Of a DNA stretch of 64,000 bases, positions 18,985 to 62,889 are shown piece by piece (the first letter of the stretch is position 1; each line of letters starts with the position of its first letter). The notes under the pieces are model-generated. The model worked only from the letters and a program-made list of their open reading frames with translations. It ran no database searches and had not been told where the DNA came from. The DNA comes from Siphonodentalium dalli (taxonomy: Eukaryota > Mollusca > Scaphopoda > Gadilida > Siphonodentaliidae): the NCBI GenBank assembly GCA_032622095.1, contig CP136062.1, positions 152,576,875 through 152,640,874 of the forward strand. Direction: 5' to 3'. The position numbers and the translations under genes were made by a program.

Positions 18985-21206
18985 AGTAATAATAATAATA
19001 ATAATAATAATAGAGAACATTTATATAGCGCTTTTCCCAAAAGGCCCAAAGCGCTCGGCCACAACACAAGTTCACGCACAAATATGCAATATACAAGTGG
19101 GTCACGTAATAAACATATGCAGAACTAACAGGCATCACTCTCAGGGACGACGTTTCCATAGTTCCGATTTAAGTAATGTTTTAAAAGTGTCCATGGTATC
19201 GGCTTTCTTTGTGTCGGCCTGTAGCCCATTCCAGACGGACGGAGCATGATATTAAAATGATCGTCTTCCGTAGTTTTCCGAGTCACGTCTAGGAACAGCC
19301 ATCAGATTTAGATCTTCTGATCGCAATTCGCGCGGCGGAGAGTACATATTGAGAATAGAGTCAATATAAACCGGCAAAGGCTTTGTGATGTCATTTGAGA
19401 ATTTCTTATAACAAAAAGTGGCACATTTATAATCAATTCGAGTTTCAATTGGAAGATAGTGTAGTTTCGCGAGAAGAGGTGTGACGTGGTCAAATTTATG
19501 TTTTCGTAGAGCAATGCGACCCGAAATGTTAATTATTCTCTGCAGCTTTGCCAATTGATCTTGTGGCAGACCAGCGAATAGAGCATTGCAATAATCCAGT
19601 CGTGAAAATACAAATGAAGAGATCAAAGTCTTCATGGATTCTACCGACAGATGTGATCGCATATGAGAAATACGCCGAAGTTCCAGAAATAAGGACTTGC
19701 ACAGTGTGTTTATATGGGACTTCATGGACAGTCCTTTGTCTAAAATCACTCCTAAATTTTTGGCGTTATCTGAGAATTCGATGTCGGCGCTGCCAATGCG
19801 TAGGGAGGTGACCTTGATAGCTTTTAAACGCTGATCCGTACCACAAAACATTAGTTCAGTTTTGTTCTCGTTGATGTGAAGCTTGTTCACCTCCATCCAC
19901 TGTTTGACTTGCATCACCCCTGACTGCAAATGTGCGAGTTTTAAGTCTATATCGCACTGCTTAAAAGAAATGAACATCTGGGTATCATCAGCATACATGT
20001 GGTAGCTGATACCGTTACCAGCTATTATGCTTCCGAGAGGTTGTGTGTATGCCGAATATAAAACGGGTCCCAGAACTAACCCCTGTGGAACACCGTATCG
20101 AATAGATCGCGATTTCGAACACGCGTCACCAATCACCACAGTTTGCGTCCGACCAGTTAGATAAGAAGTGAACCAGGAGAGGACTGTGCCAGAAACTCCA
20201 AATGTATCTGACAAGCGTTGGGTGAGAATCTGATGGTCAATCGTATCGAATGCCGCTGAAAGGTCGAGGAATGCTATGGCGGAGACAAGGCCATCATCTG
20301 CGGCACACAGTAGATCGTTCGTGATGCGAATTAAAGCAGTTTCCGTACTGTGGTCCTTTCGATAAGCTGACTGAAATGGTTCGTTGAGATTGTTTTTATC
20401 CAGATGATTCCTTAATTGATACAGAACCATCCGCTCAAGAACTTTATAGACGAATGGAAGGTTGGATACCGGTCTGTAATTTTTTAGGACATTTTGATCC
20501 ATGTTCGCCTTCTTCAGAAGCGGTATGACAAGGGCCTCTTTAAAGTTTTGAGGCACGATGCCCTCCGTCATTGAAGAATTGATTAAATCCGCAATTGCGG
20601 GCGCTATTAAATCAATGTTTTGTATGAGGAGTTCGGTTGGAATAGGATCCAAAGCACACGTTGTGGGTGACATAAACTTCATAACTGTTATAACTTGCTC
20701 TGGTGTAACACGACTGAAACTATATAATCTCTCTCCAGTGAATTTAGCAAATTCGGCACACCCTGGTGTTTGATCTATGTCCTGCCTTAGCTGAGAAACT
20801 TTATCCTCAAAGAAAGAGGCGAAGATATCAGGCAGTTTATCAAGAGGTTGATCATTCGGGAGAACAGATTTATTCGTTTTGCCGACCATGGTATTTGTGA
20901 TGCTGAATAATGCCTTTGTTGATTTACATGCACTGTTGAATTTTGTCATTGTAATACTCTGATTTGGCCCGTTTAATGAGATCGATAACATGTTGGTTAG
21001 ACTGTGAATACATTTCACGATGAACTGTTAGTTGACTTTTTCTCCATTTACGTTCAGTTTGCCTCCGTTCGCGTTTAGCTTCCATGATCTCCTCTGTCAA
21101 CCAAGGAGCAGACGTCCTACTTTTAGCGGTGTGTGTTGTTAAAGGGGCGTGCTTATTTATGAGTGTGAGAAGTTTAGAATTTAAATCATTAGTCAGTTCA
21201 GCGCAT
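18985..21206 (-). mobile_element. CR1/L2-like LINE, 5' truncated
   Basis: A non-LTR element runs on the minus strand: partial ORF2 upstream, RT domain, C-terminal domain and a short 3' UTR. The 3' end has a hairpin-forming AGCGCTTTGGGCC...AAAAGCGCT, then ATATAAATG and a TTA microsatellite tail at 18988-19012. This layout is typical of CR1/L2-type elements. The endonuclease is missing, consistent with 5' truncation. It sits between inverted arms (18801-18910 and 21207-21326) that are not part of the LINE. Confidence 0.85.
19252..21018 (-). pseudogene. LINE ORF2: reverse transcriptase, CR1/L2-like
   Basis: The open stretch encodes a full RT palm and thumb. Motifs include AFLDLSAAFDTIDH (first catalytic Asp), VPQGLVLGP and YHMYADDTQMF (catalytic YADD, 19981-19995), followed by the C-terminal SRLDYCNALFAGLP and HYLPIETRIDYK blocks that are diagnostic of the CR1/L2/Rex1 group. 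The linker before RT (20924-21214) is in another frame, so a frameshift lies near 20940. At 19252 a TAA interrupts the normal C-terminal tail; the same frame continues after it with APSVWNGL and ends near 19145. The RT core looks catalytically intact, but the element cannot encode a full protein. In the family this enzyme performs target-primed reverse transcription. Confidence 0.9.
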
Positions 21207-37974: not shown

Positions 37975-38493
37975 TATATTTGGATACAATCTATCTGTTT
38001 GTCTGTTTGTCATTTATACAAATCTACGATTCTCCACCGATCGAGACCAAACTTCGTATCTAGGGGTAAAATTCCACGGACACGGTCGTTGCCGTATTGG
38101 CGACCCCGTGCGACTCCCGTGCAGCGCATGCGCAGACGAGATATCGGAAACGGATGGAGCTATCGACTTGAAATTTGCTATGTGAATGTATCTTGCCCCG
38201 GATACGAATTTTATCGGGTCGCCGAGCCCGTGCGACGCCAGGTTCGCGCATGCGCAGACGAGATCTCGGAAACGGGTGGAGCTATCGACTTGAAATTTGG
38301 TATGTGAATGTATCTTGCCCCGGATACGAATTGTATCGGGTCGCCGAGCCCGTGCGACGCCAGCTTCGCGCATGCGCAGAACAGATCTCGGAAACGGGTG
38401 GAGCTATCGACTTGAAATTTGGTTTTTGAATAGCTATCGACTTGAAATTTGTTTTTTTTTAATAGCCCGGACAACTTCGGGCTCATCGGCTAG
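37975..38493 (+). mobile_element. Helitron-like element, plus-strand copy
   Basis: It begins with TCTGTTTGTCTGTTTGTC and TACAAATCTACGATTCTC, continues with three 122-bp units (AACGGGTGGAGCTATCGACT and GCGCATGCGCAGACGAG), and ends with the hairpin GCCCGGACAACTTCGGGC, TCATCGG, CTAG and T (38490-38493 is CTAG). This is the same family as the array at 49153-51956 in the opposite orientation. The 3' hairpin plus CTAG-T fits Helitron-type termini. Non-autonomous. Confidence 0.75.
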
Positions 38494-49152: not shown

Positions 49153-51956
49153 ACTAGCCGATGAGCCCGACGTTGTCCGGGCTATTCATAAACAAAATTT
49201 CAAGTCGATAGCTCTACCCGTTTCCGAGATCTGGTCTGCGCATGCGCGAAGCTGGCGTCGCACGGGCTCGGCGACCCGATAAAATTCGTATCCGGGGCAA
49301 GATACATTCACATAGCAAATTTCAAGTCGATAGCTCCACCCGTTTCCGAGATCTCGTCTGCGCATGCGCGAAGCTGGTGTCGAACGGGCTCGGCGACCCG
49401 ATACAATTCGTATCCGGGGCAAGATACATTCACATAGCAAATTTCAAGTCGATAGCTCCACCCGTTTCCGAGATCTCGTCTGCGCATGCGCGAAGCGGGC
49501 GCCGCACGGGCTCGACAATACGACAACGTTCACCGCCCGGTCAAACTACACACACGTACCAAGTTTCGTCCCGATCGGTCGAGAATCGTAGATTTGTATA
49601 AATGACAGACAGACAAACAAACAAACAAACAAACATACATACAGACAGAGGTCTTCAAAATATATATGAGATAGACTAGCCGATGAGCCCGACGTTGTCC
49701 GGGCTATTCAAAAACCAAATTTCAAGTCGATAGCTCTACCCAGCCCGAAATTTCAAGTCGATAGCTCTACCCGTTTCCGAGATCTGGTCTGCGCATGCGC
49801 GAAGCTGGCGTCGCACGGGCTCGGCGACCCGATAAAATTCGTATCCGGGGCAAGATACATTCACATAGCAAATTTCAAGTCGATAGCTCCACCCGTTTCC
49901 GAGATCTCGTCTGCGCATGCGCGAAGCTGGTGTCGCACGGGCTCGGCGACCCGATAAAATTCGTATCCGGGGCAAGATACATTCACATAGCAAATTTCAA
50001 GTCGATAGCTCCACCCGTTTCCGAGATCTCGTCTGCGCATGCGCGAAGCGGGCGCCGCACGGGCTCGCCAATACGACAACGTTCACCGCCTGGTCAAACT
50101 ACACACACGTACCAAGTTTCGTCCCGATCGGTCGAGAATCGTAGATTTGTATAAATGACAGACAGACAAACAAACAAACAAACAAACAAACATACATACA
50201 GACAGAGGTCTTCAAAATATATATGAGACTAGCCGATGAGCCCGACGTTGTCCGGGCTATTCATAAACAAAATTTCAAGTCGATAGCTCTACCCGTTTCC
50301 GAGATCTGGTCTGCGCATGCGCGAAGCTGGCGTCGCACGGGCTCGGCGACCCGATAAAATTCGTATCCGGGGCAAGATACATTCACATAGCAAATTTCAA
50401 TTCGATAGCTCCACCCGTTTCCGAGATCTCGTCTGCGCATGTGCGAAGATGGTGTCGCACGGGCTCGGCGACCCGATACAATTCGTATCCGGGACAAGAT
50501 ACATTCACATAGCAAATATCAAGTCGATAGCTCCACCCGTTTCCGAGATCTCGTCTGCGCATGCGCGAAGCGGGCGCCGCACGGGCTCGACAACACGACA
50601 ACGTTCACCGCCCGGTCAAACTACACACACGTACCAAGTTTCGTCCCGATCGGTCGAGAATCGTAGATTTGTATAAATGACAGACAGACAAACAAACAAA
50701 CAAACAAACATACATACAGACAGAGGTCTTCAAAATATATATGAGACTAGCCGATGAGCCCGACGTTGTCCGGGCTATTCAAAAACCAAATTTCAAGTCG
50801 ATAGCTCTACCCAGCCCGACGTTGTCCGGGCTATTCAAAAACCAAATTTCAAGTCGATAGCTCCACCCGTTTCCGAGATCTCGTCTGCGCATGCGCGAAG
50901 CTGGCGTCGCACGGGCTCGGCGACCCGATAAAATTCGTATCCGGGGCAAGATACATTCACATACCAAATTTCAAGTCGATAGCTCCACCCGTTTCCGAGA
51001 TCTCGTCTGCGCATGCGCGAAGCTGACGTCGCACGGGCTCGGCGACCCGATAAAATTCGTATCCGGGGCAAGATACATTCACATAACAAATTTCAAGTCG
51101 ATAGCTCCACCCGTTTCCGAGATCTCGTCTGCGCATGCGCGAAGCGGGCGCCGCACGGGGTCGCCAATACGACAACGTTCACCGCCTGGTCAAACTACAC
51201 ACACGTACCAAGTTTCGTCCCGATCGGTCAAGAATCGTAGATTTGTATTAATGACAGACAGACAAACAAACAAACAAACAAACATACATACAGACAGAGG
51301 TCTTCAAAATATATATGAGATAGCCGATGAGCCCGACGTTGTCCGGGCTATTCAAAAACCAAATTTCAAGTCGATAGCTCCACCCGTTTCCGAGATCTCG
51401 TCTGCGCATGCGCGAAGCTGGCGTCGCACGGGCTCGGCGACCCGATAAAATTCGTATCCGGGGCAAGATACATTCACATACCAAATTTCAAGTCGATAGC
51501 TCCACCCGTTTCCGAGATCTCGTCTGCGCATGCGCGAAGCTGGCGTCGCACGGGCTCGGCGACCCGATAAAATTCGTATCCGGGGCAAGATACATTCACA
51601 TAGCAAATTTCAAGTCGATAGCTCCACCCGTCTCCGAGATCTGGTCTGCGCATGCGCGAAGCTGGCGTCGCACGGGCTCGGCGACCCGATAAAATTCGTA
51701 TCCGGGGCAAGATACATTCACATAGCAAATTTCAAGTCGATAGCTCCACCCGTTTCTGAGATCTCGTCTGCGCATGCGCGAAGCGGGCGCCGCACGGGCT
51801 CGCCAATACGACAACGTTCACCGCGGTCAAACTACACACACGTACCAAGTTTCGTCCCGATCGGTCGAGAATCGTAGATTTGTATAAATGACAGACAGAC
51901 AAACAGACAAACAAACAAACATACATACAGACAGAGGTCTTCAAAATATATATGAG
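49153..51956 (-). mobile_element. Head-to-tail array of five Helitron-like elements
   Basis: Plus-strand ACTAG junctions at 49153, 49675, 50228 and 50746, plus a damaged one at 51319, divide five units of 518-638 bp. On the minus strand each starts TCTCATATATATTTTGAAGA, then has GTCTGT/GTTTGTTT microsatellite, CGATTCTCGACCGATCGGGA, three or four 122-bp repeats, and ends with the hairpin GCCCGGACAACGTCGGGC, TCATCGG, CTAG. The next unit begins directly with TC. TC start, hairpin and CTAG fit Helitron/HINE architecture. The many open frames across it come from stop-poor repeats: 122 is not a multiple of three. Confidence 0.75.
51408..51774. repeat. 122-bp tandem repeat, best-preserved four units
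   Basis: Units start at about 51402, 51524, 51646 and 51768. Each contains CTGCGCATGCGCGAAGC, GTCGCACGGGCTCGGCGACC, GGGGCAAGATACATTCACAT and TTTCAAGTCGATAGCTCCAC. Similar units occur three at a time in the other four elements of the array. Confidence 0.95.
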
Positions 51957-52935
51957 ACTAGCAGATTAGCCCGCCACTGGCGGGATTGGTCCCATGGCTT
52001 TGGTCGATCCATTAATTTTTGTTTTTCAAGGTAACCCCGTACAGGCACGCCGAAAAAAATATTCCCCGTCCAGAGTTGACAAATAATTATTTTGTTTTTA
52101 TAAATTTTAAATTGCGGAAAAATTTACCCGATGAAATCCCCCCCTTCCTAGGAACGACAGACAACGCATTCTTTGTTTTTCTTTTTTTTTAACCTGCCCG
52201 TACCCGTCCTAATGTCAAGGTCAAGTCGGGTGACAATTTAACCCGTCCATGACACTTCCCGTAGACACCAAGTTTGAGCTCAATCGGTCCGAGTCTATAA
52301 AGGACACACACATATATATCATTTGTGGGTACCCGTTTCAAGGTGAAGATCACCTCGGGCGGAAAAACTTACCCGATAAAAATCTCCCCCGTTACTTGGA
52401 ACTCCTAAGTACGAAATTATGTACGAAATTTCGCCTCGAGACGCTCAATGGAGCCGTATTTATACTCATCGTGTATATAGACGCTCAGTACGATAACATT
52501 GTATTGAACTGAAAACAAACGCTTCCCGTCCTGAAATCATCTCTCTGCATAATATTTCGAGGGATAAAATTGCATTGAATTGAAAACAAACGCCGGCTTC
52601 CCGTCGTGAAAATCTCTCTGCATAATATTTCTAGCGACAGGCTACAATCTCTCTGCAGATGCTAATAACGTTGAATGGTAAACAAAACGCTCTTTATAGC
52701 GATGTGTCAAAAACAAACGCTCATTAAATTATGACTTGATTAACGCCCGCCGTGCCTTTGCGGTGATTTGGGAGTGGATAAAGGGTGCTCTGAGCTTCTC
52801 CAAAACGCGACCAAGGCGGTGTCGGTGATATTCTACACTTACATACGAAATTTTAGCTCAATCTGTACACGCGTTTTGGATTCTATGAAGTACACACACA
52901 CATATATACGAAGTCTCAAAATATATAGTATAGAC
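51957..52935 (-). mobile_element. Helitron-like element, fourth core type
   Basis: It abuts the array. The minus-strand 3' end is the perfect hairpin CCCGCCAGTGGCGGG followed by CTAATCTG and CTAG. The body has AAGGT...AACCCCGT and GACCCGTCC-type units plus two CAATCGGTCC or TCAATCTGTACACGCG blocks followed by ACACACACATATAT. The far end is near GACAGATAAGAG at about 52935. Confidence 0.5.
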
Positions 52936-59190: not shown

Positions 59191-59247
59191 CTCATTTACA
59201 GAATGGGGTTATCTCTCTTTTAACAGTTTCGCATTCCTCAGCGAGAC

Positions 59248-62200
59248 ATGAAGGCAAATAAGTGCAGAATTGTTACTTGGTTAATGTATTTGATATGTAT
59301 TTTGTCGCTATTATTCTGTGTCTCACATTTTCAGTATTTATCAAAGAAGGATGAGCTTCCTGCGGTGGCTCAAATGTATGATTTTCCACTGGTGCAAAGT
59401 ATCTTGATCCACAAAATGCTTTCCTTTGGCACATGGAACGCGACTGGTATTCTTTCGTCTGCGTGTTATCTCAGTAATTTTCTTGACAAACTGAACCTGG
59501 ATATCTGTGGCATCAGCGAACATTGGTTATGTGATGCAGATTTACCTTACTTTCGCCACATTAACTCAAAATATGACTTTTTTGCTGTTAGCGATTTTTC
59601 TCAACGCCTCCCTTGGAAACGCGGGCGTTACTCTGGTGGCGTATGCCTCATGTGGAATCGCGATAGGCTCGGGAGCAGAGTAACCCCTCTTGATATAAAT
59701 GATGATCGCATTATCGGCATACAAGTAAACATGGGAAGGAGATATATTTTCACATTCCAAGTTTATCTTCCGTCTACGAACTATACTGTTGCATTTTTCC
59801 GGGAGTACATCCAGAAGTTGATTGACCTCCGCGATACATATAGTGTTCTCGGCAAAGTAGTTTTTATGGGCGACTTCAATGCAAGCCTTCAGCGTGATGA
59901 TGCGCGTGCCAAATCATTTAAGAAGTTTTTAGACAATAAGTTTATCTCTGTCAATGTCGTGTCTTTTCCCCTGAATATACCTGCAACACACGTTCCTGCC
60001 ATGGGTTATCCTGGTTCAGTGATCGATCACATTGTCGTCAACAAAGACGACACTGATCTTATTTTTCATTGCGAAATTCTGGATGATGATGCAATCAATG
60101 TGTCCAACCATAGGCCCATTTACGTCATGATGAAGTACGATGACTATACATATACACCTCGAAGTAGTACAATTCCAAGCCATAGTACATGTAAGTTCAG
60201 TTGGAAGAAGTTTAAGCTAGACACTGTAATGCAATTGTCGTATCAGTCAGATTTAGCTACATCGTTACCACGCGATGACGTAAATAACAAATCTGAGTTG
60301 GATACATTTTATGAAAACATAGTTAACTCTATCACAGTTTCTGCTCAGAATAATATCCCAAAGAAACGTTTTAAGAAGTTTCTTAAACCTTACTGGTCGA
60401 AAGAATTAAGCTTACTTCACAAGAGTATGCGATATCACAGATCTGTTTGGATTTCGGTTGGTAGGCCAATTAATGATGCAACTGGTTTATATCGCTGTTA
60501 TAAAGATGCCAAATGCTCTTTCAGGCGCGAATACCGGAGGGCATCAACTAATTTTCTTCGCTCTTTTAACGATGACATAGATAAAAGCGCTGAGTGTGAT
60601 CAAGATACTTTCTTCAGACTCTTCAACGCGAAACGCAAATCATTAGGGACACTTGGTAGCACACACTTCTCCTTTCAAAATTCGATAGTACGAGAAACCC
60701 CAGATATTCTTGAAGCTTGGGCTGAGTACTATTATAACATTTTTTCCACACCGCTAACGGATCCCAAGTTTGACGAATCACATTTTAACCTAGTCAACCA
60801 ATTTGTAGAGACCGAATCGATGAAAAATTCAACATGCCCATTAGACGGATTGTTAACTTTTCCAACTAATATGAAGGAAATCACATCTCTTTGTCGCACT
60901 TTAAACCTCAACAAAGCAGCTGGTACAGATGGTGTAAATTATGAGCATATTATTTTTGGTGGTGAGGCTCTTGCCCGCTGCATTGCTACCTTGTACAACT
61001 ATTTCTTCCAATTTGAACATATACCACTTGGTGCTAAGCGTGGTTGTATAATATCTCTATATAAGGGACATCCTAAACCAAAAGATTCCTTTGATAGCTA
61101 CAGAGCAATTACTCTGCTACCAGCAATATATAAACTTTTTGAGAAACTTTTATTATCGAGAATGGAGAAGTATACTGCCTTTGCAATTGAAGTTGATTCC
61201 TTGCAGAATGGGTTCCAGCGGGGCATAAGTTGCAACATGTCTTCTTTTCTTGTAACAGAAAGTATAGCGTATACATCCGAGAGACAGAGCAAACTGTTTG
61301 CCTGTTTCTTGGATGTATGGAAAGCTTTCGATAGTGTTTGGATAAACGGTTTATTGTATAAACTGCATAAGAGGCAATTACAGGGAAAAATTTGGAGGCT
61401 ATTTTACCACTTGTTGAACAATATCAGCTGCTGCATTAAATACCAAGGTGGTTGCTCTAGGTGGATCCCAATGCTGCAAGGAACAAGGCAGGGAGGTACA
61501 TTATCTCCCCTCTTTTATATAATATATATCAATGATCTTTTGTCAAATCTAAAGTCATCGGGATATGGCCTTTTGATGCAAGGTGCAAATTGCACATGTC
61601 CAACGCATGCCGATGACATGGCACTTTTCTCTTTAACTGCATATGGACTTCAGTCTCTTGTCGATATATGTGTCGAATATAGCTTGAAATGGCGTTATAG
61701 ATACAACACAAACAAAACCCATGTCATTGTTTTCAATGAAAGTGCTAACGCAGCACTTAAACGTCATAAGAACTGGCACATGTCTTCTCATGTCCTAACA
61801 GAAACCGACAGTGTTACTCATTTAGGTATTCCGCTTGAGAAATATAATTTTCGCTCAAAACTTGTTGACAATATTTGTACAAAAACGAAGAATGCTTTCT
61901 TCTCTTTGGCTAATGCTGGCCTGCATGCAGGCGGTATTACCCCAGCGAGCTCTCTCAAGATTTACAAGTCCGTGGTCTTACCGCGAGGCTTATACGGTAG
62001 TGAATTTTTGTGTGGTCTCTCTCAATCGGACACTGTTCAACTAGAGAAAGCACATCGTATGTGCCTCAAACTTATACAAGGCCTCAAAACTAGGACTAGC
62101 ACAGACATGGTCTTGGGTCTGCTTGGTATTCCTCCTTTAATCACATTCATTAATTGTAGAAAAGTGTCCTTGTTTTCGTCATTTTGTTTACTCGAGTCTA

Positions 62201-62889
62201 AAAAAACTGTTAAAGATGTATTTATTATCAGATTACTGAGCTTTTCATATGAATCCAACACTGCATCGAAGAATGTGTTTTTTCAGGACCTATCCAGTAT
62301 TCTTGATAACTGGAGTTTGTCCTCCTATATGTCTCAATACATATCAACAGCTCTGTTTCCAGAGAAAACAGTTTGGAAAACCCTATCGAAACAGGGCAGT
62401 CATGTTTGGAAATCTGAATGGTCTCACAGGGTGCGCACGGAACCCACCTTTGATAGATTTCGTTTGGTTCACAGCAGTCCAGAATTATCGTTTTTATGGA
62501 AAGTCTGCCAAAAGTACCCAGATGAGAAGGAGTCATTTTTCATCGCGACACAGCTACTGTGTTACCGAAATTATGCTGGCGAAACTCAGTGCCTGTTATG
62601 TGCGCGAAGTTATATAGACCTACCGCAACACATTATAGCGGTTTGCCCAGAACTTGCAGCGTCGCGTAATCATTTTTGGTATCACTTTATAGATATGTTG
62701 CCTTTAGGGGCATTTCAACTTGTGGAGTCTTTTGATCAGCAGAGACTTATTGCCCTCTTTCTAGGCTATTTGCCTATTGAACTTTTGGACATTGCATGCA
62801 TTCCACCTCAAACCATATTGAGATACTTCTTGAAGGCGACTAGGGCGCTGTGGTGCGAATGGAACCATCGTTCGTCATTGGCGTCATAA
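59248..62889 (+). CDS. LINE ORF2 protein: endonuclease, RT and C-terminal zinc finger
   Basis: 1213 residues, uninterrupted. Residues 8-28 are strongly hydrophobic (VTWLMYLICILSLLFCVSHF), unusual before an endonuclease. The APE endonuclease covers about 60-295: TWNATGI (N64), ISEHWL (E91), GDFNAS (D209, N211), VIDHIVV (D260) and SNHRPI (H288; Asn where Asp is commoner). RT covers about 545-850: NKAAGTDGVNYEHI, ACFLDVWKAFDSVW (D689), TRQGGTLSPLFYIIYINDL and CPTHADDMALFS (D789, D790). The C-terminal finger C1115-x2-C1118-x9-H1128-x4-C1133 is complete. Function: target nicking and reverse transcription of its own RNA. I do not assign the clade. A downstream start at Met57 (KMLSFGTWN) would remove the hydrophobic part. 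Confidence 0.9.
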   Translation: MKANKCRIVTWLMYLICILSLLFCVSHFQYLSKKDELPAVAQMYDFPLVQSILIHKMLSFGTWNATGILSSACYLSNFLDKLNLDICGISEHWLCDADLPYFRHINSKYDFFAVSDFSQRLPWKRGRYSGGVCLMWNRDRLGSRVTPLDINDDRIIGIQVNMGRRYIFTFQVYLPSTNYTVAFFREYIQKLIDLRDTYSVLGKVVFMGDFNASLQRDDARAKSFKKFLDNKFISVNVVSFPLNIPATHVPAMGYPGSVIDHIVVNKDDTDLIFHCEILDDDAINVSNHRPIYVMMKYDDYTYTPRSSTIPSHSTCKFSWKKFKLDTVMQLSYQSDLATSLPRDDVNNKSELDTFYENIVNSITVSAQNNIPKKRFKKFLKPYWSKELSLLHKSMRYHRSVWISVGRPINDATGLYRCYKDAKCSFRREYRRASTNFLRSFNDDIDKSAECDQDTFFRLFNAKRKSLGTLGSTHFSFQNSIVRETPDILEAWAEYYYNIFSTPLTDPKFDESHFNLVNQFVETESMKNSTCPLDGLLTFPTNMKEITSLCRTLNLNKAAGTDGVNYEHIIFGGEALARCIATLYNYFFQFEHIPLGAKRGCIISLYKGHPKPKDSFDSYRAITLLPAIYKLFEKLLLSRMEKYTAFAIEVDSLQNGFQRGISCNMSSFLVTESIAYTSERQSKLFACFLDVWKAFDSVWINGLLYKLHKRQLQGKIWRLFYHLLNNISCCIKYQGGCSRWIPMLQGTRQGGTLSPLFYIIYINDLLSNLKSSGYGLLMQGANCTCPTHADDMALFSLTAYGLQSLVDICVEYSLKWRYRYNTNKTHVIVFNESANAALKRHKNWHMSSHVLTETDSVTHLGIPLEKYNFRSKLVDNICTKTKNAFFSLANAGLHAGGITPASSLKIYKSVVLPRGLYGSEFLCGLSQSDTVQLEKAHRMCLKLIQGLKTRTSTDMVLGLLGIPPLITFINCRKVSLFSSFCLLESKKTVKDVFIIRLLSFSYESNTASKNVFFQDLSSILDNWSLSSYMSQYISTALFPEKTVWKTLSKQGSHVWKSEWSHRVRTEPTFDRFRLVHSSPELSFLWKVCQKYPDEKESFFIATQLLCYRNYAGETQCLLCARSYIDLPQHIIAVCPELAASRNHFWYHFIDMLPLGAFQLVESFDQQRLIALFLGYLPIELLDIACIPPQTILRYFLKATRALWCEWNHRSSLAS

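Follow-up and report, generated by a model that had tools for sequence, protein, structure and literature searches.

Five head-to-tail non-autonomous Helitrons with an NRF1-type palindrome in their internal 122-bp repeats in the scaphopod Siphonodentalium dalli

Within a 64,000-nucleotide window of the Siphonodentalium dalli genome (C2:152576875-152640874; positions below are those of the window unless a contig is named) lies a feature that is real, very abundant and ordinary in kind, a non-autonomous Helitron with an NRF1 consensus in its internal repeats. The account that we favour, with a probability of about three in four, is that of a five-copy head-to-tail cluster in which the interior of each element holds three or four satellite-like 122-bp units with an NRF1 palindrome (one of the sixteen being changed), and in which the palindrome is a passenger most likely amplified passively, any effects on nearby genes being incidental and specific to particular copies. 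The observations on which this account builds are the sequence itself, the element ends, the hairpin, the A|T flanks, the junctions, the copy number and the NRF1 genes with their base contacts.

A search of both strands of the whole window allowing up to one mismatch finds 19 palindrome sites, where dinucleotide shuffling gives a mean of 0.09 and a maximum of 1. Sixteen of these lie in the array between 49,237 and 51,780 (starts 49,237 to 51,769, the motif having no assigned strand); fifteen are exact copies of TGCGCATGCGCG, and the remaining one, TGCGCATGTGCG at 50,434 to 50,445 on the plus strand, has a single mismatch, just as the original prediction had it. The prediction had also likened the 12-mer to an NRF-1 site, and TGCGCATGCGCG does fit YGCGCAYGCGCR, the consensus given there, with the changed unit at 50,434 falling outside it; moreover, the core is a structurally defined NRF1 site (see below). 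Motif-to-motif spacing is exactly 122 bp in all 11 within-element intervals, and the five elements contain in order 3, 3, 3, 3 and 4 motifs, so that the motif positions together with the element limits confirm five head-to-tail elements holding sixteen 122-bp units. Comparison of the units shows that they do vary at other positions, as had been noted, and the right half is diverged in the last unit of each element. The sole other occurrence of 122-bp units in the window is a second array at 38,074 to 38,422, listed on the minus strand and in the opposite orientation to the main array, with three minus-strand motifs at 38,123 to 38,378, two exact and one ending in T.

The elements are read on the minus strand and occupy approximately 49,154 to 51,955, their individual limits being likewise approximate. 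Element 1 (49,154 to 49,669; three units) is separated by TAGA at 49,670-49,673 from element 2 (49,674 to 50,226; three units), which abuts element 3 directly (50,227 to 50,744; three units, the second with the one-base motif change); this in turn directly abuts element 4 (50,745 to 51,320; three units), which has a 56-bp tandem duplication at 50,757-50,868, and element 5 (51,321 to 51,955) has four units and has lost the C of its terminal CTAG. Each element begins with 5'-TC next to a microsatellite-like stretch (49,605 to 49,669 in element 1, minus strand, an arrangement repeated in the other four) and ends with 3'-CTAG, apart from the missing C in element 5 and two genomic copies (L040 and L043) that start without CTAG. 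The 3'-end hairpin of element 1 (49,164 to 49,183, minus strand) has a 6-bp stem and an 8-nt loop and stops 10 bp before the 3' end, within the 10-15 bp typical of canonical Helitrons, and the same hairpin is present in the other four elements. Its folding energy is -6.4 kcal/mol (z of -2.2 to -2.4), with 5 to 7 of 200 shuffled sequences folding equally well, and the five folds are not independent because four of the five 34-mers are identical.

Inspection by eye of the flanks shows that an A|T target fits the outer base in six of six CTAG left ends with a non-Helitron flank (L003, L037, L041, L042, L046 and L056), as well as three right ends of the same or related Helitrons (L003, L005 and L036); this count sets apart the tandem junctions, L040, L043 and other Helitron types, and concerns ends rather than empty sites. 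At the right end of a different Helitron downstream, at about 52,930, the A|T fit is not plain. CTAG is joined directly to TC in four of the six junctions, two of them within the array (50,227 and 50,745) and two with different neighbouring Helitrons (49,154 and 51,956), and the other two either have four extra bases (49,674) or lack the C (51,321). An element with 131-bp units ends just before 49,154 and an element with another hairpin starts at 51,956, and with Helitrons adjoining both of its ends the array belongs to a longer series of Helitrons that share one orientation. The ends of Helentrons and HINEs lack CTRR, and CTAG ends are present here; judged by their ends, the elements of the array are canonical non-autonomous Helitrons. 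Their ends, hairpin and insertion site match the canonical Helitron features given in the available parts of PMC2267711 and PMC4778049, and direct CTAG-TC joins are described for bat and maize Helitrons in the former.

Several other features of the window were noted. The neighbouring region with 131-bp Helitron units contains nine exact copies of TCAAGGTCA between 48,452 and 49,000, and the next element downstream has one at 52,215 to 52,223; the window has 11 in total, against 0.67 expected. We take this word to be an ERR/NR5A-like half-site, and a single cluster thus brings together different Helitrons with different factor-like motifs. Long open frames at 19,252-21,027 and 59,224-62,889 resemble, by eye, non-LTR reverse transcriptases.

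The genome as counted comprises 2.23 Gb in nine contigs and contains 63,353 exact copies of the 12-mer, compared to 72 of the reversed word and to 47 to 70 expected from first- to third-order Markov models of a 200-kb sample. In 55,470 of the 63,353 the 12-mer is directly followed by AAGC, as it is in the 122-bp unit, and the 28-bp tail word of the element has 16,849 exact copies, some of which are in long one-strand clusters such as that at C1:13.72-13.79 Mb. Twenty 10-kb loci at spread positions contained no 122-bp unit, and a single palindrome in a different setting (context E, below). A DNA search with the 110 bp separating two motifs gave no match, but such a search skips very common words and so has no bearing on copy number. 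The ends, the hairpin, the junctions and this copy number bear out the claim of a Helitron-like element that is tandemly arranged and amplified genome-wide. We rejected the number of exact 12-mers as a sign of function, because the Helitron accounts for it.

Conservation of the motif was assessed in 40 elements of 421 bp each, drawn from the 100 places listed for the tail word, all of them on C1. The tail word lies outside of the units and was used because copies chosen by the motif itself (L001-L008 and L037-L056) bias the conservation counts, although the sample leans to young copies, since all 40 have the exact tail word and come from the first 17 Mb of C1. Eight of the 107 unit matches had low alignment scores and were removed before counting, leaving 99 units, and a change was counted only if the base was rarer than 20% at its position. 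The 10-mer core has diverged by 1.83%, compared with 1.95% for the left 44 bp and 3.15% for the right 66 bp; bootstrapping by locus, the core differs from the left by -1.04 to +0.74 percentage points and from the right by -2.26 to -0.34 (95% intervals). An exact core (GCGCATGCGC) is present in 80 of the 99 units and an exact full 12-mer in 65, with T at position 12 in 20 units being a subfamily trait. If agreement with the majority base is scored instead, 14 of the 113 ten-base windows are less diverged than the core over all units; the corresponding figures are 27 for internal units and 33 for terminal ones. CpG bases diverge by 3.31% inside the motif and by 3.10% elsewhere.

The passenger account draws support from three of these values, the similar divergence of the core and the left part (1.83% and 1.95%), the exact core in 80 of 99 units, and the similarity of CpG bases inside and outside of the motif. 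Against it stand the better preservation of the core than of the right part, and of the motif block than of a control block with an equal number of CpGs: the motif block is intact in 91 of 100 among the matches listed (29,504 in all), and the control block, which sits in the faster-diverging right part of the unit, in 19,202 of 25,831 (74.3%). This block contrast was set aside as support for selection, because the whole-unit profile shows the left block to be equally well kept.

A further observation against passive carriage is that the palindrome occurs in about four unrelated contexts in the first 7.9 Mb of C1. Ten of the 100 12-mer places listed, all on C1 between 0 and 7.9 Mb, are in sequence unlike the unit (L001, L002, L004, two in L039, two in L045, L044, L047 and L054); of the other 90 some were fetched, and the rest were placed by the AAGC or by nearness to other units. 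The ten represent about four contexts, with C and D appearing to be related, and only about 0.2 to 0.3 places are expected by chance in this region (0.26 from the reversed word). Such a distribution would fit a site in use somewhere in the genome. Several repeat families were at first assumed to lie behind these contexts, and only context E (L054, and L026 in one of the spread loci) held as a second dispersed family: a pattern built on the flanks, in which the motif may vary freely, has 288 matches. Counting by hand the 66 copies with letters among the 100 matches listed, we find the exact 12-mer in 55, with changes in 12 of 792 motif bases (1.5%) and in 3 of 330 flanking bases (0.9%; five flanking bases per copy). 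A word common to context C (L039 and L045) and context D (L044) matches the genome 80 times, as rare as its reversed control with 85, and these contexts are therefore not abundant repeats. The genome counts covered contexts C, D and E; context B comprises L001 and L002, which lie 6 kb from each other, and context F is that of L004.

In L039 and L045 two palindromes are separated by 181 bp, within repeats that are 62.5% identical to each other; the sole stretch of at least 12 identical bases runs for 17 and includes the palindrome, these being loci that were found via the motif. L004 also has two palindromes, within about 210 bp (1,290-1,723 of the locus), one ending in G and one in A, with flanks that otherwise differ; outside the families studied there is no other such pair. 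The 1.4 kb of sequence beyond a context C locus (L104, C1:1572688-1574087) contains no recognisable gene; it has a minisatellite with several open frames on each strand and a unit of about 36 bp, judged by eye from the translation.

At least two dispersed repeat families therefore carry the palindrome, neither of which appears to keep it better than all of its surroundings. The original prediction proposed comparing the 12-mer with its neighbours within the unit, and its core is better conserved than the right 66 bp, but not than the left 44 bp, and in context E the 12-mer is no better kept than its five flanking bases. That test goes mostly against selection, and these comparisons do not support selection keeping the motif.

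A role of the palindrome in recombination or as a monomer-junction element, as in some bivalve satellites and pearl-type elements, would make NRF1 irrelevant, and is a live rival that we nonetheless consider unlikely. Subfamilies differ in a block of about 4 bp immediately after the palindrome (GAAG in 78 and TGCA in 20 of the 99 units), and one locus (L005, minus strand, 1,211-1,232) has a unit with the 11-bp palindrome word doubled head to tail; however, the subfamily difference spans no more than a few bases, beyond which the unit continues. In the available text of PMC5139131, palindromes are described at the junctions of the phBglII400 satellite and near a repeat junction in DTC84, but for DTHS3, BIV160 and Cg170 the authors found no link of this sort.

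The alternative that Helitrons have spread regulatory input, with the arrays bound by NRF1 and neighbouring genes gaining NRF1-responsive expression like HSF-1 at Caenorhabditis Helitrons, is possible, but the sequence evidence does not favour it and we think it quite unlikely. In its favour, the core of the motif is that bound in the human NRF1 crystal structure, where R206, N242 and R244 read it (available text of PMC10810270), and 15 of the 16 units have the GCGCATGCGC core with two TGCGC half sites. On C1, exon-like matches to NRF1 form two ordered sets, one at 133.91-133.92 and the other at 137.30-137.31 Mb (L009-L016), which we infer to be two NRF1 genes about 3.4 Mb apart; alignment and inspection by eye show R206, N242 and R244 to be kept in both, and the exon at 137.3 Mb matches PDB 8k3d with E = 4.3e-28. 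Single-base changes in the site are described as reducing NRF1 affinity about 2- to 12-fold (PMC10810270, in the part available), and since the change equivalent to that at 50,434 (G5 to A) costs only about 2-fold, this unit is predicted to be weakened, not dead. Binding of NRF1 to the palindromes in the cell is plausible, though methylation of the CpGs in the core would be expected to prevent it. The array offers four to six sites per kilobase, and with a CpG observed/expected ratio of 0.91 in the 200-kb sample (0.96 in the window) CpGs are not lost fast. There is also the precedent of Caenorhabditis Helitrons, which carry heat-shock elements and contain 61.4% of the C. elegans sites according to the accessible part of PMC6927752. 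Against regulatory spread, the core is conserved neither above its left neighbours nor, in the context E family, above the flanks, and the scan of the window for long open frames ties the array to no gene.

Some NRF1-like sequences lie outside of the two genes. Seven loci on C1, C3, C4 and C9 (L057-L063) contain NRF1-like frames, some of them interrupted by a stop; the dimerisation and DNA-binding parts are recognisable, and the loci form groups of near-identical copies on different chromosomes. One of them (L061) keeps the equivalent of R206, with K and G at the equivalents of N242 and R244. These loci are possibly a mobile or retrocopied NRF1 relative.

That tens of thousands of sites titrate NRF1, requiring the animal to make more of the factor or to silence the repeats, is very unlikely: the 63,353 exact 12-mers and the two NRF1 genes on C1 are in keeping with it, but sites in closed chromatin do not titrate, and the NRF1 duplication may be unrelated. 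We regard as still more improbable a broader scenario in which the more than 60,000 Helitron-loaded palindromes drew a response from the NRF1 system, with two gene copies and short multi-copy NRF1-like proteins that may interfere (two of three base-reading residues being changed), and in which these elements, together with neighbouring Helitrons bearing ERR/NR5A-like half-sites, may as rolling-circle elements have rewired mitochondrial gene control. The least credible alternative is that the motif matters as Z-DNA or a cruciform through its alternating purine-pyrimidine DNA, for although the 12-mer, read off the sequence, alternates perfectly, the reversed word does so too and has four CpG steps rather than three, and yet occurs 72 times against 63,353, this being a single control.

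Under the passenger account, a Helitron would have acquired the 122-bp satellite-like units, and rolling-circle transposition would then have spread many thousands of copies. Head-to-tail arrays could have arisen via circles, by read-through, or by insertion beside an earlier end. Accessible copies could be bound by NRF1, and the palindrome would have risen in number with the element as a passenger, its effect on nearby genes being incidental and varying from copy to copy.

A search of the literature, most subscription journals lying beyond its reach, turned up no description of Helitron-borne NRF1 sites, nor of NRF1 together with satellite DNA, and among the listed papers that contain the palindrome none is about transposable elements by its title. 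One paper on re-methylation in germ cells (PMC7236515) reportedly deals with NRF1 binding sites together with transposable elements, and one on ageing is said to mention NRF1 together with molluscs and transposable elements. The closest parallel is with the Caenorhabditis Helitrons, where consensus sites of a conserved transcription factor likewise occur in clusters; but there, in the available text of PMC6927752, HSF-1 occupancy and induction of nearby genes are demonstrated, whereas the NRF-1-type motif here is known from sequence alone, and conservation lends no support. The Cg_HINE elements of Crassostrea gigas are likewise rolling-circle elements of the non-autonomous kind, with satellite-like repeats at their centre, a microsatellite segment and a terminal palindrome, but these are classed as Helentrons, with subterminal inverted repeats and monomers mostly of 140-180 bp (PMC7492417, as far as its text was available), whereas the elements described here have canonical TC/CTAG ends, A|T insertion and a 122-bp unit. 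In joining CTAG straight to TC they resemble the head-to-tail Helitrons and Helitron circles in the available portions of PMC2267711 and PMC4778049, to which they add internal 122-bp arrays and long one-strand clusters. They can also be likened, by description, to the bivalve pearl-type elements and BIV160/Cg170, which are modular with short internal arrays, and, again by description only, to DTC84 with its palindrome near a repeat junction (PMC5139131, in its accessible part).

On present evidence the main lesson is that a consensus site may be perfect and repeated on a massive scale and yet be a passenger, and that its conservation has to be measured against adjacent bases within the repeat that carries it. 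If the arrays do bind NRF1, they would amount to a natural collection of mobile NRF1 sites on a very large scale, and would provide a direct test of whether rolling-circle elements can rewire mitochondrial gene control.
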